Part shown: positions 37,903-51,667 of the stretch, in pieces
Position numbering within the stretch: the first letter of the stretch is position 1
Layout of the letters: each line of letters opens with the position of its first letter
Source: Verrucomicrobiia bacterium
GTDB lineage: Bacteria; Verrucomicrobiota; Verrucomicrobiia; Limisphaerales; CAIMTB01
Assembly: GCA_019634625.1 (NCBI GenBank)
Contig: JAHCBA010000015.1
Location: 62,001 to 126,000 of the forward strand
DNA length: 64,000 bases
Direction: 5' to 3'
Program-made: the position numbers and the translations under genes
Notes under the pieces: generated by a model
What the model saw: only the letters and a program-made list of their open reading frames with translations
Told to the model about the DNA's origin: nothing
Databases searched by the model: none

Positions 37903-39027
37903 TCACCTCGACCGCAATCGGAAGAACACTGCTTCGCTGGTTCCCGGCAGTTCGACCGACATCATGGCGCCCTCAAGCACCGCCTCCCTGGCCACAGGAT
38001 TGAACGGCCCACTGACCTGTGTTGCCGACTCCGTCACGAATCCCGGGCCACACACGGACGCTGGCCAGCGAAGGCGCACCCCCTCGCCGGTACGCACCCA
38101 TTCGATCGTCGGCACCTCAACAGGTTTCGGGATCAGCAGCACCTCCGGCAACGAACTCACCGCGGGCACCTCCAGCACGCGATCCGGGACAGGCTCGTGA
38201 CAGTCGCTGCGAACGTGGAGCGTGTAAGTCCCTGCGGTCAGGTTCGTGAACGCAAACCCTCCCTCGCCATCCGTCGACAATTCCAACGTCGTGTCGCCCG
38301 GACCCGTCAGCGTGATGGTCACACCCACCCCCGGCGTTCCCGAGACACCCCCGGTGCGGACGGTGCCCCGAACTTCGAAGCGGGACGGCGCGGGCCCCGG
38401 ATCCACCCCGCTGAACCGGCTCAATTCCCACCCGCCATTCTCGAACCCGCTGAAGGCCAGCCGCACCGGCCCGATGCCCGGGGCCAGGTGCCACTCCTCG
38501 ACATCGCCGAAGTCATCCAGCCGGAGAACCAGACAGTTCTGGAAGGTCCCTGCCGGCGTCGTGACGGTCGCCGTGGTCGAGATGACCGTGTACTCCGACT
38601 CGAAGTACGGGTCCCATAGGAAGTAGCGTTCCCCAACCCTGGGGTTCGCGGGCAGATAGAGCACATCGGCCTCATGATACTCGCCCGTCAGCCCGTCGTG
38701 GGTCCGCAACTGCCAGACGTTCCCGTCCGTGTCCTGAGCCAGCCAGGAGAGCTGGTCCGCGTCGATCGATCGCCTTGAGCGCGCCTTGAGGCAGGCCACC
38801 CCGTCCACCGTCTCAACCGCCAGCGCCTCCATGGAAAGCCCGATGCCCCGCGCATCCCCGAAGCCGGTGAACGTCAGCGACGTCCCGACCCGCCAGGCGC
38901 CGTAGGGGTGGGTCAACATTGCGGAGTTCGGACCGAAAGTGGCGGCAGACGCCGTCCAGACGGCCCCCAGCCCGAGGGCGACCAGGCTTGATCGCAGTTT
39001 ACCAGTGAGTGTGTGGATGCGTTTCAT
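37903..39027 (-). CDS. Secreted protein with CNA-B-like domain and shared C-terminal module
   Basis: The 374-residue product starts MKRIHTLTGKLRSSLVALGLGAVWTASA, a clear signal peptide. Residues ~25-215 form a beta-rich domain with YLPANPRVGERYFLWDPYFESEY that I do not recognise. Residues ~220-300 are a carboxypeptidase-regulatory/CNA-B-like domain (VTITLTGPGDTTLELSTDGEGGFAFTNLTAGTYTL). The C-terminal ~70 residues end in EAVFFRLRSR and fit the shared module of this window. The ATG at 39027 was chosen because the signal begins there. It lies 210 nt downstream of the giant Calx-beta gene. Confidence 0.75.
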   Translation of the reverse strand: MKRIHTLTGKLRSSLVALGLGAVWTASAATFGPNSAMLTHPYGAWRVGTSLTFTGFGDARGIGLSMEALAVETVDGVACLKARSRRSIDADQLSWLAQDTDGNVWQLRTHDGLTGEYHEADVLYLPANPRVGERYFLWDPYFESEYTVISTTATVTTPAGTFQNCLVLRLDDFGDVEEWHLAPGIGPVRLAFSGFENGGWELSRFSGVDPGPAPSRFEVRGTVRTGGVSGTPGVGVTITLTGPGDTTLELSTDGEGGFAFTNLTAGTYTLHVRSDCHEPVPDRVLEVPAVSSLPEVLLIPKPVEVPTIEWVRTGEGVRLRWPASVCGPGFVTESATQVSGPFNPVAREAVLEGAMMSVELPGTSEAVFFRLRSR

Positions 39028-39236: not shown

Positions 39237-42200
39237 TCACTCGCCCCCTCCCGTCACGTGGCGCGCCCGGTAAAAGCCCGCGGCCGTGCCCGGCTCGGCG
39301 ACGATCGGGATCCACGTCGTCTCCACCTCGCTCCGGAACTCACCGACAGTCCGCCACGGACTCCCCTCCCCGATGAGCGCCTCAGCGCGCTCGATGAGAT
39401 ACCGCCACCCGACTGGACCCCGCACGCCCAACCGCATGCCGCCCCCGACGTCCCGCGTCACCAGCAGTTCGATTCCCCCGACCTCCACCTCCCACCGGGC
39501 CAGGTTGGTCTCGTCGAAATACTCGTTGTTCCCACGCACCGATACCTGGCTTGTCGCCAGGCCCGGCCGCGAAACCCTCCCGATCACCCGGATCTCGTTC
39601 ACCGATGACCTGGCAAGGTGTCCCATGTGGAAGACCAGTGTCCCACCGCGCCACTCGAGACGGCCCTGCCGGTACTCCGCATGCAGGAATTCCACGTTCG
39701 GCGGGAGTTCGTGGGTCACGACGACGCCCACGCCCTCGCACTCCCCACCGTGGCGCACGGTCACCGTATAGGCGATTTCGTCCCCGGCCCGCACCACTCC
39801 GGATGGCCCGTCCATTTCCACCGCCAGACTCAACGCCCCGCACTCCAGACACCGGATCAGCCAGCAGACCGCGTTCTGAAACAGCGCCTTCCGATTGAAC
39901 TGCCCCGCCGGATCGTCCCCGCGCGCCACCAGGAAGTGCTGCCGCACCGTTCGCGTCTGTCCGTAGTCCACCTCCTGAAACCCCGGATGAATCACCAGCA
40001 CTTCCGACTCCCCGGCGCGCCCCAGGGTCTCCGACTCGGGATCGACATTGGTCACCACCTCCAGGCCGCCGGGATGCTCGATCCACTCCTCCAACACCCC
40101 GAAGTGCCCGTGACGGATGGCCTCATACTCGACCGAACTGTCAAGGATGATCCGGCCCGCGCCCGTGCGACCCTGCACCGGCCCGGCCTGCACCAGGGAC
40201 TGCCACGCCACCCGGGCACTGCCCGTGAGCGCCTCACCCGATGACCCCAACCGCTCCCCGATCAGATACAGCGGCATGCCCTCAGCGTGCAGGCGGGCGA
40301 ACAACTCGGCCTGAACTCCGGTGAGGCCGGGTTCGCCAAGATCGTTCCAGATCACCAGCCGGAAGGGACGCAACGCCTCGAAATCCGCCGTCGCCTCGTC
40401 AAACACCACCGGACACAACCCCATGTCCCACAGGTACGCCTCCATCAATTCGATCTCCGAACCCTCCCCGTTCCCGACAATCGCCACGTCTCCCGCGAGA
40501 GGCCGCACCACCACACATACCGGTTCCGATACCGTCATCGCGCCGTCCCGACAGTACGCCACCGCAGTGAAGCAGTAGTCCCCAACCGGCACTTCCTCCC
40601 AATCGACCGCGAATGGGCTGGACCGGACAACGGCCAGTGGCATCGACCCCACATGGAACTCGACCCGTTCGATCCGGTCGGCGTCGCCGTCCCCCGGCGT
40701 GGCCGCCAGGTGAAGCGTCGAGCCCGGCGCATAGCAGGCCCGATCCCGCGGCGCCACCACGGTCAGAAACCGGGGACACTCCGTCCCGCCTCCGCCCGTG
40801 CGGTCGTCGTCCACGATGGTCCCCAACCCCCGGTCGATCCGGAACGTGGCGTGGCTCGCCCGGACGAGCCGCACTTCGAACCGCTCGTCCTCCTCCTCGA
40901 GGGTGTCTCCCAGGACCTCGACCCGGATCTGCGCTCCCGTCTCTCCCGGTCGAAACCGGAGCGTCCCGGACGTCGCCCGATAGTCCAGGCCCGCCGTCGC
41001 ACTGGTCGGCCCGGGCGGCAGGTCGGCGGTCGCATAATCCACGGTCACTTCAAAGCCGCTCGGTCCCGACAACCGAACCGAAAACACGGCGTCCGTCATT
41101 CCCTCGTCCCCTTCGATGACGCTGACGGAATCCACCGACAACTCGGGGGGCGGATCGTCATCCACAATCGTCCCCACCGCCTGCACCCGGCCCGGCATCG
41201 CGCCCTCCCACTCCAACAACTCCACATGAAACGTCTCGTCGGGCTCATCCAACCGGTCCCCAATGATCTCCACCGGAAGGGTCGCCGTAGTCCGCAGCGG
41301 CTCGAACCGCAACGTTCCCGCGGCAGCCCGATAGTCGAGCCCCGCCAAAGCCGACCCGTTCCCTGTGCGGTAGCGCACCGACACGGGAAAACTGCTCGGA
41401 TTGCTCAAGGCGACACCGAAGGCCGCCACCGTCGTCCCTTCATCCCCCTCGGGCACCCGGACATCGGCCACTTCCAGCGTCGGCATCGGGTCGTCATTCA
41501 CGATCGTCCCCACGGCGCGGTCCCGGCCGAACCGCGCGTTGCGCACCTCGCTCAACCGCACCTCGAACGTCTCGTCGTGCTCGTACACCCGGTCCCCCAG
41601 CACCGGCACCGACACCGTCCGCAGCACCTCGCCCGGCTCGAACAACACCGCCCCCGCCCGCGCCAGGTAATCCTCCCCGGCCCGTGCCGTCCCATCCGCG
41701 GTGCTGTAGTCGGCCCGCACGGTGAAGCGGTTGGGCGCCGTCAACCGGACCTCGAAGACCGCGTTGGTCGTGCCGTGATCGCCCTCAAGCACCCGCGCAT
41801 CGGCGATCGACACGACACCCGGATCCTCGTCGGTGATGGTCACCCTTCCCACCGGCCGGATCAGACTCGCATGCTCGGGCTCGGACAGGTCCACGAAGAA
41901 CCACTCGATGCCCTCATCGAAGGTGTTCCCGCTCACCACCACCTCCACCCGTCCTCGTGTCTCCCCCGCCGGCATCTCGACCACGCCGGCCCGCGTCTCG
42001 TAATCCGTCCCCGAACTCGCCGTCCCGTCCCGCGTCGCATACCGCACCCGAACGTCCCGCTCGCCCGGTGACGACAACGTCACCTCAAGGATCGCCACCG
42101 CGGCCCCTTCTCGCCCCACGTTCACCTCGACGTCCCCGATCGACAGCCCCGGCGGATCGTCATCCAGAATCGTCGCCGTCCCCCGCCCCCTGGCCACCGC

Positions 42201-45200
42201 CGCCCCCTCGGACCGGCTCAACTGCACCTGGAAGAATTCCGTGGGCTCGTCTTCCGCATCGTCCAGAACTTCGATCGACAACCGCAATTCGGTGGTCCCC
42301 GACGGAAACCGCAGCGTGCCCGACGCCGGAACATAGTCCCTTCCGGCCACCGCCGTGCCATCGAGCGTCGCGTAGTCCACTGTCACCTCCCGCCCGGAAG
42401 GGGGATGCAACCGCACCGTGAAGACCGCCCGGGCGCCAGGTCCCTCGGTGACGGTCACATCGTTGATGGACAGGCCAGGCGGCGGGTCCACCCGGTTGGC
42501 GATGACCACCAGGTTGTTGCCGGGCACCGGATCGGCCGTCCCCGACTGCACCTGCCCGAGGTAGATCAGGTTCCCAAGGCGCACCGGTTCGACCTCCAGC
42601 GCCATGGCGACGCTCTCGCCCGCCCGCAGCAACGGAATCGAAACGACCACATCCCGGTTCGTAACCGTCACTTCTCCCGCCGGACTGGTTGCCGCCACCA
42701 ACGGCACGCCGTCAGGAAGCCGGTGCAGCACCTGCACCCGCTCGGCCTCGCCCGGACCGAGATTCTCCAGGACCAGGGCGTACGTCAGCAGACCCCCAAG
42801 CGTCACCGGCTCCGGCGTGCCGTTCCCCGTCAGCCGCAGGTCCGCCTGCGTGCAGCAGGTCCATTGCCCGCCCGACTCCCGCCCCAAAACCAGTTCATAC
42901 GGCAATGCCCCCAGGGAACGGTCGCCGTCCGCCACCTCCAGCCACAGCGTCAGGCGTTCCCCGCATCCGCCCATCGCCTGAAGCGTGAAGGGCCGGCTCA
43001 CCGCCCCCCCGCCCACCCCGACCCCGCCGTACGACTGCGCCCCAGAAAGGACGGTCACCCGCCCGGTATCCCGCAGGCGCGCCGTCAGGTTGCCGATCGG
43101 ACCCAACCCCCGATTCACCAACGCCAACTGCAACGTCACGGTCTCGCCCGGGTCCACCGCGCCGTTGGCAGGCACGCATTCCTCCGCCATCAGCGCCCAG
43201 CCCGCCGCCTCGGGACGACCCAGGTAGTCGTCGTTGACGATCGTTCCGGTCCCCTGGCTCACCGCCAGGACCGCATTCACCGGATCGCTGAGCCGCACAT
43301 GGAAGATCTCATCCAGTTCGGGCAGGTCGTCGCCATGCACCGTCACCGCAATCCGCTGTTCGGTGGTCCCCGGCGCCCATTCAAGCTGCCCCGAGGTCAG
43401 CACATAGTCGCTCCCGGCCACCGCCGTCCCGTTGGCCGTCGTGTACGTGACCCCGACCGCACGACGGCTGGGCACCGTCAACCGGACCGTGAACACCGCC
43501 TGCGTCGTCGTCCCCGACCGACCTTCGACCACCCGCACATCGTCGATTGTGATCGAGGGCACGATCCCGTCGAAATCCAGGATCGTTCCGGTGGCGTTCG
43601 TGCGGCTCAGGGTCGCGTTCTCCGGCCGGCTCAACACCAGGTGGAAGGTCTCGTCCGGTTCCGTCACCGTGTCCCCCAGCACCCCCACCCGGATCTGGGC
43701 CTCCGTCTGTCCCGCTTCGATCATCAACACCCCGGAGGTCGCCTCATAATCCAGCCCGGCAATGGCTGTGCCGTTGGCCGTTGCATAGGCCACCGACACC
43801 CGCCGGCCGATCGGAACCTCCAGGCGCAATGGGAAAACCGCCTCCGTCCGACCCCCGTCCGGCGGTTCCTCCACCGTGACATCCTCAACCGTCAACGCGG
43901 GCACATCGTCATCCAGGATCGTGCCCGTCCCGATGCCGCGCCCCTCGGCGATGACCGCGTTGACGGGATCCCTCAGCACAACCCGGAAGGTCTCGTCCGC
44001 CTCCACCAGCCGATCTCCCAGCACCGGCACCATCACCGTCGCGGTCGTCGTTCCCGGCGCGAAGGTCAGCGGCCCCTGTGTGCGAACATAGTCCACACCC
44101 GCCATCGCCGTGCCGTCCGCCGTCTCGTAATCCACCGTGACCGTCCGCCCGCTGCCCGGCTGCAACCAGACTGTGAATACCGCGTTCGTGGTCCCGGTGT
44201 CCCCTTCCCGCACCGCCACATCCCCGATCGACAGCCCCGTCGGCGCCAGCACCCGTGTCGCCACCACCGCCACGTTGTCGTTCGGGTTCGGATCGTTCTC
44301 GACGCTTCCCACCCGGAAGATCGCGATGCGATCCCCGGGACTTTCCGGCACCCCCACCACGATCACCTGGGCCCCTTCCCCGGGTTCGATCCGCCCCAAC
44401 GCGCAACGCAACAGATCCCCCTCCAGCTCGCATCCCCCCTGCGTCGCCTCGAACGAAATCAGCCGCACGCCGGCCGGAATCCGATTCGTCAGCCCCACCG
44501 CCGTCGCCGGAAGCGGCCCGCGATTCGCCACCTCGGCCACATACGTCAGCGGTTGTCCGACCTCCACGGTCTCCGGCACACCGGGCACCGCGACGCCGAC
44601 ATCCGCCGTCCGGCAACACACCCATCGCCCGCCCACCAGGGTCCCCAGGGTCAGCCGGAACACCACGTTCGTCAGCGGCACGGTCCCCTCCCTCAACTCC
44701 ATCCGCGCCTCCACCACCCCGCCGCACTCCCCGTCCACCCGCAGCGTGAACGGCCGCGACACTTCCGGCCCGCGCGCCTCCAACCTCCCGAATGGCTGCG
44801 GCCCGCTGATCGGCGTGACCCCTCCCCCTTCCACCAGGCGCCCGATCAGATTCGTCGTCGGGATGCTCCCCACATTCGCCAGCGCGAAGTTCACCGTCAC
44901 GGTCTCCCCCGGATCGATCGCCCCATTCGCCGGAAGACAATCCTCGACGATCACCGACGTTCGTACCGGCACCACGACCACCACCAGATCGTCATCCACG
45001 ATCGTCCCGATCCCCTGCTGCCGCCCCAGCGTCGCCCGCACCGGATCGCTCAACCGCACGAAGAACATCTCGTTCGGCTCCGGAATGTCGTCTCCCAACA
45101 CCGTGACGGTCACCGGCAGGGCCACAGTCCCCGCCGGAAACGTCAGCAGCCCCGTTGCCCTCCGATAGTCCTCCCCTTCGGTCGCCGTGCCGTCCGCCGT

Positions 45201-48200
45201 CTCGTACCGCACTGTCACCGTCTCGCAACTCGCCGCCGAAAGCCGCACCGTGAACACCGCCGGTGTCGTCGTCCCGGCCGGTCCTTCGATCACCGTGACG
45301 TCGTCGATGAACAATTGCCCGCTGTCGTCGTCCCGGATCGTTCCCGTGCCGCGCGCCCGTGCCACCCCGGCGTTCACCGCGCCGCTCAAGTCCACATAAA
45401 ACCGCTCGTCCGCCTCGACCCGGCAGTCGCCGATCACGGGAACCACGACGGTCCCGACCGTCGTTCCCGGCGCAAACTCGAGCTCGCCGCTTCGCGCCTC
45501 ATAATCCTCGCCCGCCGTCGCCGTGCCATCGGCCGTCGCGTACCGCACCGTGACGGTCCGGCTGTTCGCCACCGAAAGACTCACCCGAAAGACCGCCTGC
45601 GTCGTTCCGGAATCCCCTTCGGTCACCGTCACATCCTCGATCGAAATCTCGCACACATCGTCGTCTTCGATCGTCCCCACCGCGCGCTCCCGCTGCAAAC
45701 CCGCCTCCGATGGGTTCCGCAGGCTCACCAGGAACGTCTCGTCCGGCTCCGCCACCCGATCCCCAATGACCTTCACCGTCACTGGCTTGCTCGTTTCGCC
45801 CGGACTGAAGCTCAACGTGCCCGACGCAGCGATGTAATCGTTCCCCGCCCGCGCCGTGCCATCCGCCGTCTCATAGGACACCGTCACCGGCCGCCCGCTT
45901 GCCTCCGTCAATCCCACCGTGAACACCGCATCCCGCGTCCCGGTGTGTCCCTCGACCACCCGGACATCCCCGATCGTCAGTCGTGGCGGGTCGTCGTCGT
46001 TCCGGATCTCCCCGGTCGCCCGGCCCGCTCCCGCCCCGATCCGCCCGTTCTCCGGCTGGCTCAACGTCACGAAGAACGTCTCGTCGAACTCGTACCGCCG
46101 ATCCCCAACGACCGGGACCGTCACCGCCCCCGTCGTCTGACCCGGCTCGAAGGTCAATCGCCCCACCCGCGCCTGGTAGTCGTTGTCCCCCGTTCGCGCC
46201 GTGCCGTCCGAGGTCGCATACCCCACCGACACCCGCCGCCCGCTGGGCCGCGACAAGCTCACGGGAAACACCGCGTTCCGCGGCCCGCTGTGCCCCTCGT
46301 CCAGCGACACCCCGGCGATCGAGATTTCCGGCGGCTCGTCATCGTCCAGAATCGTCCCCGTCGCCACCCCCCTCTGAATCAACGCCTGCGTCGGCTCGCT
46401 CAACGTCACCCGGAAAGTCTCGTCGTCCTCGTCCAGCAGGTCGTCCATCACCGGCACCCGGATCTCCCTCTCGGTCGTCCCCACCGGGAACTCCAGAATC
46501 CCCGAAACCGCCCCGTAATCCACTCCCGCCCTCGCCGTCCCGTCCGACGTCGCATACCGCACCGTGACGATCTCCTTCGCCGCCGGTGCCAGCACCACCC
46601 GGAAGACCGCCTCGCCCGGCCCGCCGCTCCCTTCGACCACCGTCGTATCGAACACCGAAAACGCCGGATACGGATCGTCGTTCCGAATCGTCCCGATCCC
46701 CTGCGACCTCCCGATCCTCGCCCCCACCGGATCGCTCAATTGCACCACGAACGTCTCGTCCGGCTCCGGCAGATCGTCCCCGATCACCACCACCACGACC
46801 TCCCGTTCCGTCTGACCCGGCTCGAAGATCAACGACCCCGACGCCGCCCGGAAATCCACCCCCAGGGTCGCCGAACCGCCCACCGCCAAATACTCCACCT
46901 TGATCGCCAGCGAACTCGGCCGCGACAACCCCACCCGAAACACCGCATTCGTCGTCGTCCCCGCCGCGCCCTCGAACAACGTCACATCCCCGATCTCCAG
47001 CACCCGCCATTCGTCGTCATCCAGGATCGTCCCCACCGCCTCCAACCGCCCCGGTACCGCATGCGTCAGGCCGCTCAACGTCACCCGGAATGTCTCGTCT
47101 GCCTCAATCGCCACATCCCCGATCACCGGCACCGTCACCCGCCCCACCCGCTCCCCCGCCGGCAACGTCAACAGCCCCGACCGCGCCACGTAATCGCTCC
47201 CCGCCGTCGCCGTCCCGTCCGAGGTCGCATATCGCGCCGTCACCGTCCGACCGCTGACCGCCGACAACGACACCTCGAACACCGCGTCCACCAGCCCGAC
47301 GTCCCCCTCGACCACCGAAACGTCCTGGATCGAAAGCGTCGGCGTCGGATCGTCGTCCCGGATGGTCCCGATCGCCTCGCCCACCGACACCACCGCATCC
47401 ACCGCCCCACTCAGCGTCACCCGGAACGTCTCGTCGTCCTCGTCCATCACATCCCCGATCACCGACACCGGGATGTGCACCAACCCGACGCCCGGAGGGA
47501 ACACCAGCGTTCCCGCCGCCGCCACATAGTCCACGCCCGCCGTGGCCGTGATGTCCGACGTCGCGTACTCGACCGTCACCGCCACGCTGCTCGCCGGCAC
47601 CAGCGTCACCGGGAACAACGCCGTTCGCATCCCCACGTTCCCCTCCTCGACCGACACCGGACCGATCGCCAGCCGGTTCGGAAACGCCGCCGGCGTGAAC
47701 AGGTCGTCCACCGTCACCGTCAGCGACCCCGCCTCCTGGTCCACATTCCGCGCCCCGGAGTTCTGCAACCCGATCCGGTTCACCGACAGACTCCGCCCCT
47801 GCGGCAGCAACGCCGAGGAAAACCCCACCAGATTCGTGAACCCCGCCCCGTCCAGGATCTCCACCGTCAATGTTCGCAACCCCGACTTGTACCGTCCCAC
47901 CGCCAGATACTCCCGTGCCAACTCCAGCGGCACCGCCGCCCCACCTGACTGGAACTCCCCCTGCTCGATCGTCGCATTCGCCACCAAGCGCCCCTCCGCC
48001 GTGGACACCACCATCGTCAGCCCATCCCCGAAATCCCCCAGCGACCGGTCCGTCATCAACCCGAAGAACCCCGCCGGCGAAAACCGGTCGTCCACCTCCT
48101 CCACCCGGAACCGCACCGAGAAACTCGCATCCACCCCATCCGTCACCGCGCCGAACGGCCGCGACAGATAGAACGCCGCATCCCGATCCACATCCAGCAC

Positions 48201-48413
48201 CGCCCGCAGCCGCCCCTCCGCCGCATCATGCTCAAACCCCGACTCCGTCCCCCCCACCCGCATCTCGAACCGCCCCGAAGCCACCGGGTCGTTTGAAAAG
48301 TCCTCAGCCACCGCACCCCCTGCCGGACTCCCCGCAAACACCAGCGCCGCGAGAATGCTTCTCCTCGCCCGGTGGGTTCCCTCCACCCATCCGCTCAGGC
48401 AAACCCCAAGCAT
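39237..48413 (-). CDS. Giant secreted Calx-beta repeat protein
   Basis: The ATG at 48413 starts MLGVCLSGW and a signal peptide (SILAALVFAGSPAGGAVA), giving ~3058 residues; the frame runs further upstream through a repeat. After an N-terminal lectin-like domain (~30-240) come 16 Calx-beta repeats by my count, in blocks of 8 (~246-1139), 3 (~1393-1729) and 5 (~1983-2539), with patterns such as VEGDSGTTQAVFRVSLS and DGTATAGEDY. Each gap holds a copy of a CARDB-like plus DUF11-like module with a double-Cys (WVCCRTADV, WTCCTQADL). Then follow an Ig-like domain, a GATase/ThuA-like domain (~2640-2860), DUF11, and the FYRARHV C-terminus. Likely a calcium-binding surface or matrix adhesin. Confidence 0.88.
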   Translation of the reverse strand: MLGVCLSGWVEGTHRARRSILAALVFAGSPAGGAVAEDFSNDPVASGRFEMRVGGTESGFEHDAAEGRLRAVLDVDRDAAFYLSRPFGAVTDGVDASFSVRFRVEEVDDRFSPAGFFGLMTDRSLGDFGDGLTMVVSTAEGRLVANATIEQGEFQSGGAAVPLELAREYLAVGRYKSGLRTLTVEILDGAGFTNLVGFSSALLPQGRSLSVNRIGLQNSGARNVDQEAGSLTVTVDDLFTPAAFPNRLAIGPVSVEEGNVGMRTALFPVTLVPASSVAVTVEYATSDITATAGVDYVAAAGTLVFPPGVGLVHIPVSVIGDVMDEDDETFRVTLSGAVDAVVSVGEAIGTIRDDDPTPTLSIQDVSVVEGDVGLVDAVFEVSLSAVSGRTVTARYATSDGTATAGSDYVARSGLLTLPAGERVGRVTVPVIGDVAIEADETFRVTLSGLTHAVPGRLEAVGTILDDDEWRVLEIGDVTLFEGAAGTTTNAVFRVGLSRPSSLAIKVEYLAVGGSATLGVDFRAASGSLIFEPGQTEREVVVVVIGDDLPEPDETFVVQLSDPVGARIGRSQGIGTIRNDDPYPAFSVFDTTVVEGSGGPGEAVFRVVLAPAAKEIVTVRYATSDGTARAGVDYGAVSGILEFPVGTTEREIRVPVMDDLLDEDDETFRVTLSEPTQALIQRGVATGTILDDDEPPEISIAGVSLDEGHSGPRNAVFPVSLSRPSGRRVSVGYATSDGTARTGDNDYQARVGRLTFEPGQTTGAVTVPVVGDRRYEFDETFFVTLSQPENGRIGAGAGRATGEIRNDDDPPRLTIGDVRVVEGHTGTRDAVFTVGLTEASGRPVTVSYETADGTARAGNDYIAASGTLSFSPGETSKPVTVKVIGDRVAEPDETFLVSLRNPSEAGLQRERAVGTIEDDDVCEISIEDVTVTEGDSGTTQAVFRVSLSVANSRTVTVRYATADGTATAGEDYEARSGELEFAPGTTVGTVVVPVIGDCRVEADERFYVDLSGAVNAGVARARGTGTIRDDDSGQLFIDDVTVIEGPAGTTTPAVFTVRLSAASCETVTVRYETADGTATEGEDYRRATGLLTFPAGTVALPVTVTVLGDDIPEPNEMFFVRLSDPVRATLGRQQGIGTIVDDDLVVVVVPVRTSVIVEDCLPANGAIDPGETVTVNFALANVGSIPTTNLIGRLVEGGGVTPISGPQPFGRLEARGPEVSRPFTLRVDGECGGVVEARMELREGTVPLTNVVFRLTLGTLVGGRWVCCRTADVGVAVPGVPETVEVGQPLTYVAEVANRGPLPATAVGLTNRIPAGVRLISFEATQGGCELEGDLLRCALGRIEPGEGAQVIVVGVPESPGDRIAIFRVGSVENDPNPNDNVAVVATRVLAPTGLSIGDVAVREGDTGTTNAVFTVWLQPGSGRTVTVDYETADGTAMAGVDYVRTQGPLTFAPGTTTATVMVPVLGDRLVEADETFRVVLRDPVNAVIAEGRGIGTGTILDDDVPALTVEDVTVEEPPDGGRTEAVFPLRLEVPIGRRVSVAYATANGTAIAGLDYEATSGVLMIEAGQTEAQIRVGVLGDTVTEPDETFHLVLSRPENATLSRTNATGTILDFDGIVPSITIDDVRVVEGRSGTTTQAVFTVRLTVPSRRAVGVTYTTANGTAVAGSDYVLTSGQLEWAPGTTEQRIAVTVHGDDLPELDEIFHVRLSDPVNAVLAVSQGTGTIVNDDYLGRPEAAGWALMAEECVPANGAVDPGETVTLQLALVNRGLGPIGNLTARLRDTGRVTVLSGAQSYGGVGVGGGAVSRPFTLQAMGGCGERLTLWLEVADGDRSLGALPYELVLGRESGGQWTCCTQADLRLTGNGTPEPVTLGGLLTYALVLENLGPGEAERVQVLHRLPDGVPLVAATSPAGEVTVTNRDVVVSIPLLRAGESVAMALEVEPVRLGNLIYLGQVQSGTADPVPGNNLVVIANRVDPPPGLSINDVTVTEGPGARAVFTVRLHPPSGREVTVDYATLDGTAVAGRDYVPASGTLRFPSGTTELRLSIEVLDDAEDEPTEFFQVQLSRSEGAAVARGRGTATILDDDPPGLSIGDVEVNVGREGAAVAILEVTLSSPGERDVRVRYATRDGTASSGTDYETRAGVVEMPAGETRGRVEVVVSGNTFDEGIEWFFVDLSEPEHASLIRPVGRVTITDEDPGVVSIADARVLEGDHGTTNAVFEVRLTAPNRFTVRADYSTADGTARAGEDYLARAGAVLFEPGEVLRTVSVPVLGDRVYEHDETFEVRLSEVRNARFGRDRAVGTIVNDDPMPTLEVADVRVPEGDEGTTVAAFGVALSNPSSFPVSVRYRTGNGSALAGLDYRAAAGTLRFEPLRTTATLPVEIIGDRLDEPDETFHVELLEWEGAMPGRVQAVGTIVDDDPPPELSVDSVSVIEGDEGMTDAVFSVRLSGPSGFEVTVDYATADLPPGPTSATAGLDYRATSGTLRFRPGETGAQIRVEVLGDTLEEEDERFEVRLVRASHATFRIDRGLGTIVDDDRTGGGGTECPRFLTVVAPRDRACYAPGSTLHLAATPGDGDADRIERVEFHVGSMPLAVVRSSPFAVDWEEVPVGDYCFTAVAYCRDGAMTVSEPVCVVVRPLAGDVAIVGNGEGSEIELMEAYLWDMGLCPVVFDEATADFEALRPFRLVIWNDLGEPGLTGVQAELFARLHAEGMPLYLIGERLGSSGEALTGSARVAWQSLVQAGPVQGRTGAGRIILDSSVEYEAIRHGHFGVLEEWIEHPGGLEVVTNVDPESETLGRAGESEVLVIHPGFQEVDYGQTRTVRQHFLVARGDDPAGQFNRKALFQNAVCWLIRCLECGALSLAVEMDGPSGVVRAGDEIAYTVTVRHGGECEGVGVVVTHELPPNVEFLHAEYRQGRLEWRGGTLVFHMGHLARSSVNEIRVIGRVSRPGLATSQVSVRGNNEYFDETNLARWEVEVGGIELLVTRDVGGGMRLGVRGPVGWRYLIERAEALIGEGSPWRTVGEFRSEVETTWIPIVAEPGTAAGFYRARHVTGGGE
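40795..42465 (-). repeat. Calx-beta block C (5 repeats)
   Basis: Five protein repeats of about 110 residues, from SINDVTVTEG to GTIVDDDRTGG. Each carries the D-E-T-F / E-x-D-E acid clusters that bind calcium in the family. Confidence 0.85.
43225..44235 (-). repeat. Calx-beta block B (3 repeats)
   Basis: Three repeats from SIGDVAVREGDTG to GTIVNDDYLG; the second has the insertion EEPPDGGRTEAVF in its first strand and ends in D-F-D-G instead of D-D-D. Confidence 0.85.
44995..47675 (-). repeat. Calx-beta block A (8 repeats)
   Basis: Eight repeats from AIGPVSVEEGNVG to GTIVDDDLVVV, the longest uninterrupted run in the protein. Neighbouring copies differ enough that DNA-level identity is patchy, so the array looks old. 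Confidence 0.85.
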
Positions 48414-48418
48414 GCGGC

Positions 48419-48531
48419 TCTCACGGAGGCACCAGGGCACGGAGGAGAAGATCCCCTGAAGACCCTCAATCCCGCGCCCGGATTGTGTCTTGCCCATCAT
48501 CTCCGTGTCTCCGTGTCTCCGTGGGAAACCG
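48419..48531. repeat. ACGGAG/CTCCGT interrupted palindrome
   Basis: CTCACGGAGGCACCAGGGCA CGGAG-type sequence at 48419-48445 faces three CTCCGTGT units at 48502-48531, forming an interrupted palindrome. Runs of C-A-C-G-G-A-G-A are a widespread intergenic repeat in Verrucomicrobiota and Planctomycetota. It lies just upstream of the giant gene's start codon. Confidence 0.65.
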
Positions 48532-48560
48532 TCCCTTGAATCATCCATGGATCTCGCCTT

Positions 48561-51083
48561 TTACGGGATCTGGACCGCCCGATAGAACCGCGACGGTCCT
48601 TCATCGGCCGCCAACGTCATGCACCCGAGTGCCCCCGCCGCGACCGACAGTTCTCCAATGCGAGTCCATTGCGTCAGGTTGGGTTGAGCATGGAACGCCG
48701 GCGCCCATTCGATGGCGTACTTCCCGGCCGTCGCGCCCCCCGCAAGGCAGAACTCCAACCCTCCGCCCGGAGCCTTCCCGACCCTCAGCGAGAAGTCGCC
48801 GATCCGCCAACCCTCTCCCGGTCCCGCCACGAAGCTGGCCATGCCGCTCATCGGCGGCTGCCCATTGTCCGTCACCCGCACGGTGATCGTGTGCTCACGA
48901 CCCGCCTGCTCCTCCGTCGGCGTCCACGAGAACAATCCCGTCTGCGGTTGGATGCTCGCGCCGGCTGGTGCGCCGTCCCCCAGTCCGAAGGTGAAGGCCT
49001 GAAGAACCGGCCGGTCCAGATCGAACGCCGTCACCGTGAACACCAATGGCACCCCGGCCGCAATCGTCTGCCGCGGAATCGGGTCGATCTGCGGTGGCTG
49101 ATTGACCTCGTTGACCCGCACTTCAAACGTCCTGAAATCCAAGGGAGTGAGCGTGTTGTTCGGATCCACCGCCTCGACGGTGACCGTGTAGGTCCCGGGT
49201 CCATGCTCCTCGCCCGGAATCCAGGTCACCACACCCAGATCCACCTGCATCCCGTCCGGGGCATCGCTTCCCAGACGCACCTCCGGAACCGGGGCGGCCA
49301 ACGAGAGCGGTACGGTCATCAAAGCCCCTTCGTCCACCACCTGGTTCGCGATCCGGTCCAGGTAGCCGCTCCGAATGCTCACCTCGTCGATGTACCAGCC
49401 GGGGGCGGTATTGTGAGTGCGGCCCGAGTTCCAACGGGTGTGAAGATAGAACCCGATCTGCACCGTCCTGCCGGCGTAGGATGTCAGTGGGTAACCTGCC
49501 GGACTCCATCCCTCGCCACTACTACCCCGGATCTCCCCGCTCAAGTCGCGCCAGGCCCCCCCAACTTCTCTGATCTGGACCTTCCCGTAGTCGCCGCCTT
49601 CGACAGGCTGCTCAGCGGCGTTGCGTTGCAACTCCACATAGAACCCATGGAAGTGCCAGAAGCTCAAACGAGGTTCCAAACTCCCTGGCGGCACCAGGAA
49701 CGTAGGCGAGATCAGATGGGAGGCCGTGTTATCCCAATAGTCGGCAGCTACACGGGTTCCCATGACGCTCCGCCCCCGATACGCCCCCCGGGGACCGAAA
49801 CCAAGCGGCACGACGCCAATCTCCCACGAGCCGAACTCGGCAGACCAGTCTCCCGGACCCTCCTCGAAGCCCTCGGGATTCCGAAAGGCGATCGGCCCAC
49901 GGACCAACGAAACCTCGTCGAGATACCATCCGGGTGCGGTGGTGAGACTACGCCCGGAGTTCCAGTGGGCCTGGAAGTTGAATCCGACCTGAACGCGTTT
50001 GCCGGCAAAGCCCCCCAGGGCAACCGAGACCGGGCTCCAAGCGCCCGAACTGTTTCCACGAATCTCCCCGCCCAGGTTCTGCCACGCCCCGCCCACCTCC
50101 CGAATCTGAAGGCGTCCATAATCCCCCCCCTCGATAGGCTGCTCAGCAGCGTTGCGTTGAAGCTCCACATGGAACTCGAACCAATGCCAGAACCGTAACC
50201 GCGGATTCTCGTCGGCATCGGGCACGGTGAACTCCGGAGTCATCAGCCGTGACTGGGCGTTGTCCTGATAGTTGGCGGCCAATCGCGTTCCCATGACATT
50301 GGCGCCCCGAAACGCGCGGCGGGGCCCGAAGCTGGCCGGGAGCGGGCCGACCTCCCAGCTCCCATACTCGGCGGACCAATCCCCCACGCCGTTCTCGAAA
50401 CCCTCCACGCCCTCGCCGAACTCGATCGGCCCACGGACCAGTGAAACTTCATCGAGATACCAGCCAGGTGCCTCGGTCAGGGCTCGCGCCGAATTCCATC
50501 TCGTATGAAGATGGAAGCCAATCTGAACACGTCGGCCCGCAAAGGCCGCGAGTCCGACGGACACGGGACTCCAAGCGCCCGAACTGCTTCCACGAATCTC
50601 CCCTCCCAGATTCTGCCACGCTCCACCCACCTCACGGATCTGAAGGCGCCCGTAATCCCCCCCTTCGACAGGCTGCTCAGCGGCGTTGCGTTGGAGCTCC
50701 ACATGGAATTCGAACCAGTGCCAGAACCGCAGCCGCGGATTCTCCGACGCCTCGGGCACCAGAAACGAATGCGTGATCAGTCGCGAGTTCACGTTGTCAG
50801 AATAGTTCCCGCCGAGGTTCGTGGCGGCGCAACGGGTTCCCTCCTTCGCTCGCCCCGGTCCGCTGGTGGGCACCCCGGCCTGCCAGACCCCACCCTCGAC
50901 AAACCAGTCCTCCCATACCTGGTCCGACTCGAAGTCCTCGTGCCACACCACCGTGGGCGCAGCGTGAACGGCCGGGCCGCGAAGCAAGCATGCCACGGTA
51001 ACCAGCATGAGCAGGCACGTGGGGAACGCCCGGCCTCGGGCAGACGGGCTTCGAAGGAGCGGGGTGAGGTGCGACGGTTTCAT
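48561..51083 (-). CDS. Secreted protein with a triplicated 177-residue module and two Ig-like domains
   Basis: The ATG at 51083 starts a basic signal peptide (FPTCLLMLVTVACLLRGPAVHA), giving 840 residues. Three tandem modules (~50-225, 225-405, 405-580) each contain FWHWFEFHVELQRNAAEQP, GGDYGRLQIREVGGAWQNL and APGWYLDEVSLVRGP; they resemble MAM/jelly-roll domains. Two cadherin-like putative Ig domains follow (ANQVVDEGALMTVPLS; NQPPQIDPIPRQTIAAG). The final ~70 residues (GKYAIEWAPAF ... SRFYRAVQIP) are the shared C-terminal module. It is transcribed toward the giant Calx-beta gene, 147 nt away. Confidence 0.85.
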   Translation of the reverse strand: MKPSHLTPLLRSPSARGRAFPTCLLMLVTVACLLRGPAVHAAPTVVWHEDFESDQVWEDWFVEGGVWQAGVPTSGPGRAKEGTRCAATNLGGNYSDNVNSRLITHSFLVPEASENPRLRFWHWFEFHVELQRNAAEQPVEGGDYGRLQIREVGGAWQNLGGEIRGSSSGAWSPVSVGLAAFAGRRVQIGFHLHTRWNSARALTEAPGWYLDEVSLVRGPIEFGEGVEGFENGVGDWSAEYGSWEVGPLPASFGPRRAFRGANVMGTRLAANYQDNAQSRLMTPEFTVPDADENPRLRFWHWFEFHVELQRNAAEQPIEGGDYGRLQIREVGGAWQNLGGEIRGNSSGAWSPVSVALGGFAGKRVQVGFNFQAHWNSGRSLTTAPGWYLDEVSLVRGPIAFRNPEGFEEGPGDWSAEFGSWEIGVVPLGFGPRGAYRGRSVMGTRVAADYWDNTASHLISPTFLVPPGSLEPRLSFWHFHGFYVELQRNAAEQPVEGGDYGKVQIREVGGAWRDLSGEIRGSSGEGWSPAGYPLTSYAGRTVQIGFYLHTRWNSGRTHNTAPGWYIDEVSIRSGYLDRIANQVVDEGALMTVPLSLAAPVPEVRLGSDAPDGMQVDLGVVTWIPGEEHGPGTYTVTVEAVDPNNTLTPLDFRTFEVRVNEVNQPPQIDPIPRQTIAAGVPLVFTVTAFDLDRPVLQAFTFGLGDGAPAGASIQPQTGLFSWTPTEEQAGREHTITVRVTDNGQPPMSGMASFVAGPGEGWRIGDFSLRVGKAPGGGLEFCLAGGATAGKYAIEWAPAFHAQPNLTQWTRIGELSVAAGALGCMTLAADEGPSRFYRAVQIP
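49360..50935 (-). repeat. Tandem triplication inside the 840-aa protein gene
   Basis: Three copies at ~530-bp spacing are conserved at the DNA level; the marker GGCTGCTCAG occurs at 49606, 50137 and 50671, i.e. periods of 531 and 534 nt. Conservation of third codon positions points to recent duplication or ongoing gene conversion. Confidence 0.8.
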
Positions 51084-51118
51084 GTCAGGAACTGTGCTGG
51101 GGTGGGGAGAGAAACTCG

Positions 51119-51667
51119 TCAGCGGTTGGCCAGCGTCGCCTCGGTGAGCTGCTCCAGCTTCGCACGACACAGCGCGGCGGCCTGGATCGCCCGCAGGGCG
51201 AGCGATTTCGTCTCGCGCCTGTCCCGGATCATCTGGCCATAGGGGACGTCGGTGTAGGCGTGTCCACCCGCGATCGCCGCCAGGAAGTGAATGCCAAGGT
51301 CCGCCACGAACGCTCCGGCAAGCGCATTGCCCTGCTGCCGCGCTTCGCCGTCGACATGGGCGGTGGCCTCGATGGCCACGCCCCGATCGAGCAGCGCCAA
51401 AACGAGGTTCGTGTCCCCCGCTTCGGCCGCCCGGTGCAAGGGCGTCGCACCGACGGAATCCCGGCGCTCAAGGTGGCGGCCCCGCTCGATCAGGGCCTTC
51501 GCCCTGGCGTGGTCCTTGCGCACGATGGCGCCGTGAAGCGGCGGATGCGTCGCGCAGCCGCCTGTCACCACGGCAAGCGCCACGAGGACCAGCACGCATG
51601 CGGCGAGCGGTTTGAGGGAGGAGCCGGCGGCAACCGCGAACCGCGACAGGGAGGGAAGGGTGTTCAT
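51119..51667 (-). CDS. Ankyrin-repeat probable lipoprotein
   Basis: The product (182 residues from ATG 51667; ATG 51676 is an alternative) has a hydrophobic N-terminus (LAACVLVLVALAVVTGGC) with a Cys that could be lipid-modified, although the preceding T-G-G is a weak lipobox. Two ankyrin repeats follow (THPPLHGAIVRKDHARAKALIERG and GATPLHRAAEAGDTNLVLALLDRG). The C-terminal half is uncharacterised. Ankyrins bind proteins. It lies 35 nt upstream of the 840-aa gene, so cotranscription is likely. Confidence 0.78.
   Translation of the reverse strand: MNTLPSLSRFAVAAGSSLKPLAACVLVLVALAVVTGGCATHPPLHGAIVRKDHARAKALIERGRHLERRDSVGATPLHRAAEAGDTNLVLALLDRGVAIEATAHVDGEARQQGNALAGAFVADLGIHFLAAIAGGHAYTDVPYGQMIRDRRETKSLALRAIQAAALCRAKLEQLTEATLANR

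Follow-up and report, generated by a model that had tools for sequence, protein, structure and literature searches.

A probable fibrillar adhesin-like protein from a Verrucomicrobiia bacterium with a Calx-beta stalk and a putatively non-catalytic GATase-fold domain in its tail

The window analyzed here, a stretch of 64,000 nucleotides from a Verrucomicrobiia bacterium (contig JAHCBA010000015.1), encodes a giant protein on the minus strand at 39237..48413; all features of this gene given below are on the same strand. These coordinates had been given correctly in the first-pass annotation, and translation from the ATG at 48413 yields 3058 aa. The frame remains open further upstream, to an ATG at 48548, which adds 45 codons and results in a 3103-aa ORF (P0001), the numbering of which is used for all residues. 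The additional codons overlap the intergenic region and an inverted 'cacggagacacggag' element within it, and a signal peptide follows position 48413; therefore, the ATG at 48413 is preferred as the start. This Sec-type signal peptide (residues 46-81; 48306..48413), judged by eye from the sequence, consists of a basic n-region and a hydrophobic core, with cleavage near AVA-ED. It is followed by an N-terminal domain (residues 82-291; 47676..48305) that had not been recognized before, has no match in Pfam, and is 58% identical in a genome from another family of the same order (G085); we regard it as a candidate distal head. The protein is acidic, with a pI of 4.4. The intergenic region before the gene (48414-48560) contains a 'ccacggagacacggagacacggag ... 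cctccgtg' element, which is probably a dispersed intergenic repeat.

At the other end, the protein terminates in a domain that we refer to as the FYR tail (residues 3026-3103; 39240..39473), which was delimited with an HMM of the tail and a genome-wide profile and is likewise missing from the first-pass annotation. The profile, describing a domain of 70 residues, had 80 matches in the source genome at E up to 0.01, and all copies that were checked (20 of 20) end within 14 codons of the stop; Pfam gave no convincing match for this domain. To judge from what C-terminal sorting domains generally do, the FYR tail likely sorts or anchors the protein. Within the window, the profile matches at 39261-39473 and 48564-48788.

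The gene upstream of the giant gene (48561-51170, minus strand, 869 aa) likewise has an FYR tail and further encodes a He_PIG Ig domain and three MAM-like repeats that resemble one another; its product is a probable second exported surface protein. Downstream, a gene at 37903-39027 (minus strand) encodes a signal peptide, a CarboxypepD_reg domain, and, by eye, an FYR-like end ('VFFRLRSR'). Together with the giant gene, these two would form a run of three consecutive minus-strand genes for exported proteins. Farther along, on the plus strand, a 1465-aa frame at 33339-37736 matches glycoside hydrolase family 2 as well as glutaminase A-type (GtaA) domains and is an apparent GH2/GtaA fusion.

The architecture proposed in the first-pass annotation, with 16 Calx-beta repeats in an 8+3+5 layout, is borne out. 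Pfam recognized 16 stretches of Calx-beta (PF03160) with a whole-protein E of 2.2e-279 and 909 bits, passing the cut-off, and HMMs built from the protein itself placed them as repeats 1-8 (44988..47675), 9-11 (43227..44240), and 12-16 (40803..42479). The acidic columns of Calx-beta are kept in 12 to 16 of the 16 repeats, and NCX1 chains (NCX Calx-beta domains) match the repeat profile of the giant protein with an E of 6e-33. Judging from these residues, the stalk may be stiffened by Ca2+. DNA-level tandem repeats were not found in the gene with TRF, which indicates that the Calx-beta repeats have diverged. Furthermore, haemolysin-type Ca2+-binding (RTX nonapeptide) families gave no match at E up to 1 in either Pfam or NCBIfam, and the protein was not classified as an RTX adhesin because the C-terminal RTX nonapeptide repeats were not found in that search.

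The three blocks of Calx-beta repeats are separated by two composite modules of 249 aa each (residues 1188-1436 and 1775-2023, placed by HMMs from the protein), in which a CARDB-like half precedes a DUF11 domain. Module 1 (44241..44987) comprises the CARDB-like half at 44613-44987 and DUF11 at 44241-44612, with a Cys doublet at 44613-44618; module 2 (42480..43226) has the same composition, with the doublet at 42852-42857, so that the doublet noticed previously is present in both. The self-comparison supports the relatedness of the modules as whole units, since 35.7% of their 249 residues, aligned without gaps, are identical (z = 26 vs shuffles), and their CARDB-like halves reach 41.6% identity. 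While DUF11 was recognized by Pfam in 3 stretches of the protein, the CARDB-like half matches PF07705 weakly: a hit was obtained for 22 of the 48 members aligned, with an E of 1.5e-4 at best, but not for the half in module 1. A sequence search of the PDB with the first DUF11 gave nothing convincing; the model of the composite module (pLDDT 93.7) matches the CLIPPER structure 9ifr with its DUF11 half (Z 13.6). Across 55 CARDB-like units, both members of a cysteine pair are present in 23 and neither in 29, with 3 mixed cases, a pattern that, although inflated by shared ancestry, points to a disulfide within this half; in module 1, it would join C1204 and C1275.

A 3674-aa protein of G085 (L146, on contig G085:C22) has a similar layout, with the N-terminal domain, eight Calx-beta repeats, a composite module, three repeats, a module, and three repeats, followed later by the Big_7, GATase-like, DUF11, and FYR domains described below. 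Beyond its third Calx-beta block, it continues with a LamG-like stretch (by eye), one more Calx-beta repeat, and other domains, whereas the window protein has two more Calx-beta repeats at the corresponding place. The position-wise match between the Calx-beta repeats of the two proteins exceeds every one of 20,000 permutations, repeat 13 being the clearest pair, and their GATase-like domains are 31% identical. In G087, which belongs to the genus of G085, a copy collinear with that of G085 and mostly 83-88% identical to it (L188, G087:C36:74000-92500) is split over several frames, reflecting either true decay or assembly errors. The collinear order in G085 and G087 implies that the 8-module-3-module order predates the split of the two families or was moved whole. 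On the best reading, the design had a single origin and was then passed on by descent or transferred intact, with the far part of the stalk being remodelled.

Among genomes of the same genus as the source (G001-G004), no full-length match to the composite module was found. G001 encodes a 3082-aa protein with the same N-terminal domain and tail but with 13 uninterrupted Calx-beta repeats. The tail of this protein is the nearest to the window tail in the tail tree (84/93). The G085 tail is no closer to the window tail than other tails are, so that tail and stalk may have separate histories. These comparisons suggest that the ends of the protein were retained and its stalk was remodelled.

The conclusion of the first-pass annotation that the composite module was duplicated as a unit therefore needs to be qualified: the two copies are homologous as whole units and belong to one clade, but the arrangement is not particular to this protein, being common to G085 and G087, and the collinear relative in G085 rules out a recent duplication in place. 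With regard to origin only, separate acquisition of the two modules was considered as well. CARDB-like halves are common across the genomes of the order, and single units elsewhere reach up to 46% raw identity. At 41.6%, the two window copies are no nearer to one another, which would be compatible with such a scenario. Since raw identity does not set the modules apart from single units, it is the tree and the unique junction that carry the argument for a single clade. Elsewhere in the order, the CARDB-like unit precedes other sequence, of the 'FD.v..P.LP.GW' or 'yPS.i.VsG' type, and a fusion through a CC..[AG]D junction was seen in only four modules among the fetched loci, two from the window and two from one G085 protein, all with an invariant Cys doublet. 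A tree built from 55 CARDB-like units joins these four to the exclusion of 51 others of the order (92/95), a group recovered in 92% of bootstrap trees. Both observations make separate acquisition improbable.

Following the last Calx-beta block, the protein ends in a tail of four domains. The first is a Big_7-like Ig domain (residues 2592-2684; 40497..40775), newly noted here on the basis of a weak Pfam match, the tail HMM, and the model. The second is the domain that had been described as GATase/ThuA-like (residues 2687-2903; 39840..40490). An AlphaFold2 run on 36 aligned tails resulted in a model with a pLDDT of 90.8, and its structural comparison proved the fold call right. Over about residues 95-309 of the model, the best-scoring structures were STM1381 (3soz, Z 18.2) and a GATase1-like protein from Planctomyces (3rht, Z 17.4); ThuA-like structures (4pxy, Z 17.4, rmsd 4.9; 4e5v, Z 15.4) and TrpG (1i7q, Z 15.9) matched as well. 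The domain thus has both the alpha/beta fold of class I glutamine amidotransferases and a ThuA-like fold, matching 3soz, 3rht, 4pxy, and 1i7q in fold over about 190 residues at Z 15.9-18.2. Unlike these, it lacks a nucleophile Cys, is embedded in a secreted multi-domain protein, and has no Pfam family: none of the 36 members had a convincing family match, ThuA being missing even from the hits at E up to 1, and searching PDB sequences with the profile of the domain likewise gave nothing convincing.

GATases carry their nucleophile Cys at the elbow, as in the 'PVLGICYG' of the GuaA protein from the same genome. When the GATase-like alignment was compared as a profile with the GATase domain of this GuaA, no meaningful alignment resulted; the catalytic position was therefore assigned from the fold, the pattern, and the numbers of Cys and His, with the elbow placed by pattern and topology rather than by superposed coordinates. 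At the elbow thus placed, which reads 'PLYLIGERL' in the window protein (Gly 2764), Gly is invariant (36 of 36) and Cys is absent (0 of 36). Neither a His nor a Cys column fitting a catalytic pair is conserved among the 36 members, and the conserved residues are mostly structural. With the catalytic Cys/His check carried out, the glutamine-amidotransferase-like fold of the first-pass annotation does not extend to a working enzyme, and with the elbow as located by pattern, the domain does not qualify as a class I glutamine amidotransferase. The clear match to GATase1-like and ThuA-like folds (Z 15-18) might still suggest a surface-tethered enzyme, be it an amidotransferase, a peptidase, or a sugar-active protein, and a chemistry other than Cys-His-Glu is conceivable. 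Given the invariant Gly, the lack of a suitable His or Cys column, and the mostly structural conservation, we consider an active enzyme very doubtful.

The GATase-like domain is followed by a third DUF11 domain (residues 2904-3025; 39474..39839), another addition to the first-pass annotation, which was placed by the tail HMM and the model and is linked to its neighbor by Cys co-variation. The well-occupied Cys columns of the GATase-like domain are confined to its C-terminal border, and these border cysteines co-occur perfectly with the DUF11 cysteine: 25 proteins have both, 11 have neither, and none is mixed (n = 36; p = 1.7e-9, a value inflated by shared ancestry). This co-variation predicts a disulfide between the two domains, from C2937 to C2900 or C2903, that would clamp the GATase-like domain to the last DUF11. 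CLIPPER/DUF11 domains, such as those of fibrillar adhesins (9IFR), can carry a Lys-Asn isopeptide bond (PMC12617251). The DUF11 domains of the window protein share the profile (3 Pfam stretches) and the CnaA-like fold, with matches to 9ifr at Z 13.6 and 14.7. However, each of the three contains 0 Lys, which makes a Lys-Asn isopeptide bond impossible there; assignment as isopeptide-bonded CLIPPER domains was rejected for this reason, and disulfides are predicted instead.

The tail is not restricted to this protein. Of the 320 genomes from the order, 36 encode GATase-like domains, with up to five per genome. Nearly all of the 36 proteins in which the domain was scored keep the succession of Big_7, GATase-like, DUF11, and FYR, some lacking FYR. 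This cassette rides on Calx-beta stalks or on other stalks, and several differing paralogues occur per genome; the source genome itself encodes a second protein with a GATase-like tail (L010, 2107 aa). In a sample of 387 genomes of the phylum, the source genome was the only one with a match. The description of the domain as unusual holds in that it lacks a Pfam family and had no other member in the phylum sample, but it recurs within the order. The seven named loci with a GATase-like domain are all Verrucomicrobiota records, two from Pedosphaera sp., a genus placed in the order Pedosphaerales by NCBI taxonomy, and one labelled Akkermansia muciniphila. The latter contig (L169, CAMAWP010000198.1) carries the domain even though the phylum sample gave only the source genome, and its label may be wrong.

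Two further loci deserve mention. L189 (G284:C17:30500-45000) has the N-terminal domain almost directly before Big_7, GATase-like, and FYR domains, with no Calx-beta stalk and with a frame change; it may be a naturally short form, or else the gene has decayed or was misassembled. In the source genome, L009 (G000:C4:246000-262000) encodes a Calx-beta protein of 2800 aa that has an FYR tail but no GATase-like domain; a metalloprotease motif, HELGHNLGLLH, was read in it by eye. Apparently, neither the tail cassette nor the FYR domain is described in the mostly open-access literature that we found. We rate at somewhat below even the chance that these GATase-fold domains constitute a new, unnamed family of extracellular pseudo-amidotransferases. 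They would be clamped by a disulfide to a domain of the CLIPPER type, with a set place in the Big_7-GATase-like-DUF11-FYR tail of giant surface proteins in one order of Verrucomicrobiota, and would serve in ligand binding or sensing or in multimerisation of the fibre, the ends being kept while the stalk is remodelled.

Taken together, the giant protein is probably secreted and fibrillar, of an adhesin-like kind, stiffened by Ca2+ and reinforced by disulfides, and its tail would carry a non-catalytic module with the GATase fold. The first-pass term adhesin was soundly derived, as a signal peptide (by eye) and a long stalk of Ig-like repeats are both present; adhesion itself is what we infer from this architecture, and no adhesive ligand domain was recognized by family in Pfam. 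The absence of a recognized ligand-binding family, together with the great length, acidity (pI 4.4), and repeat-rich composition of the protein, would also suit a structural matrix, sheath, or S-layer-type protein that builds extracellular material and binds no specific target, and DUF11-containing proteins occur in archaeal surface layers as well (PMC12617251). We nevertheless regard such a role as rather unlikely, since the protein varies in its stalk but is conserved in its N-terminal domain and tail, as expected of a fibre with head and base, and since several differing paralogues per genome suit a bulk lattice less well.

For the adhesin-like protein, the nearest tested precedent that we found is BapP, a Calx-beta protein required for Ca2+-influenced biofilm formation in Pseudoalteromonas tunicata (PMC12153261). 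Both proteins have a Sec signal peptide, an N-terminal head, and a stalk of Calx-beta and other Ig-type repeats. BapP differs in its length of 1600 aa, its five-bladed propeller head, and its BIg_9 repeats, and a GATase-like or FYR tail does not appear to be described for it (PMC12153261). In the fibre proposed here, the secreted protein would present the N-terminal domain as a distal binding head on a Calx-beta stalk stiffened by Ca2+. The composite modules may act as covalently braced joints, in which disulfides would do the work that an isopeptide bond does in other CLIPPER/DUF11 domains. The putative base would consist of Big_7, the non-catalytic GATase fold, DUF11, and the FYR tail, with the GATase-fold domain, disulfide-clamped to the last DUF11, serving as a non-enzymatic module for ligand binding or oligomerisation and the FYR tail sorting or retaining the protein at the surface.

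These findings point to an enzyme fold that has recurrently been re-used outside the cell as a structural or binding module, with an elbow Gly and a border disulfide as the signature of the pseudo-GATase. Moreover, that a repeat protein of 3000 aa keeps its repeat order across two bacterial families suggests selection on the layout of the stalk. Annotation of large surface proteins in the Verrucomicrobiota would benefit from the tail cassette and the FYR domain, neither of which has a Pfam family.
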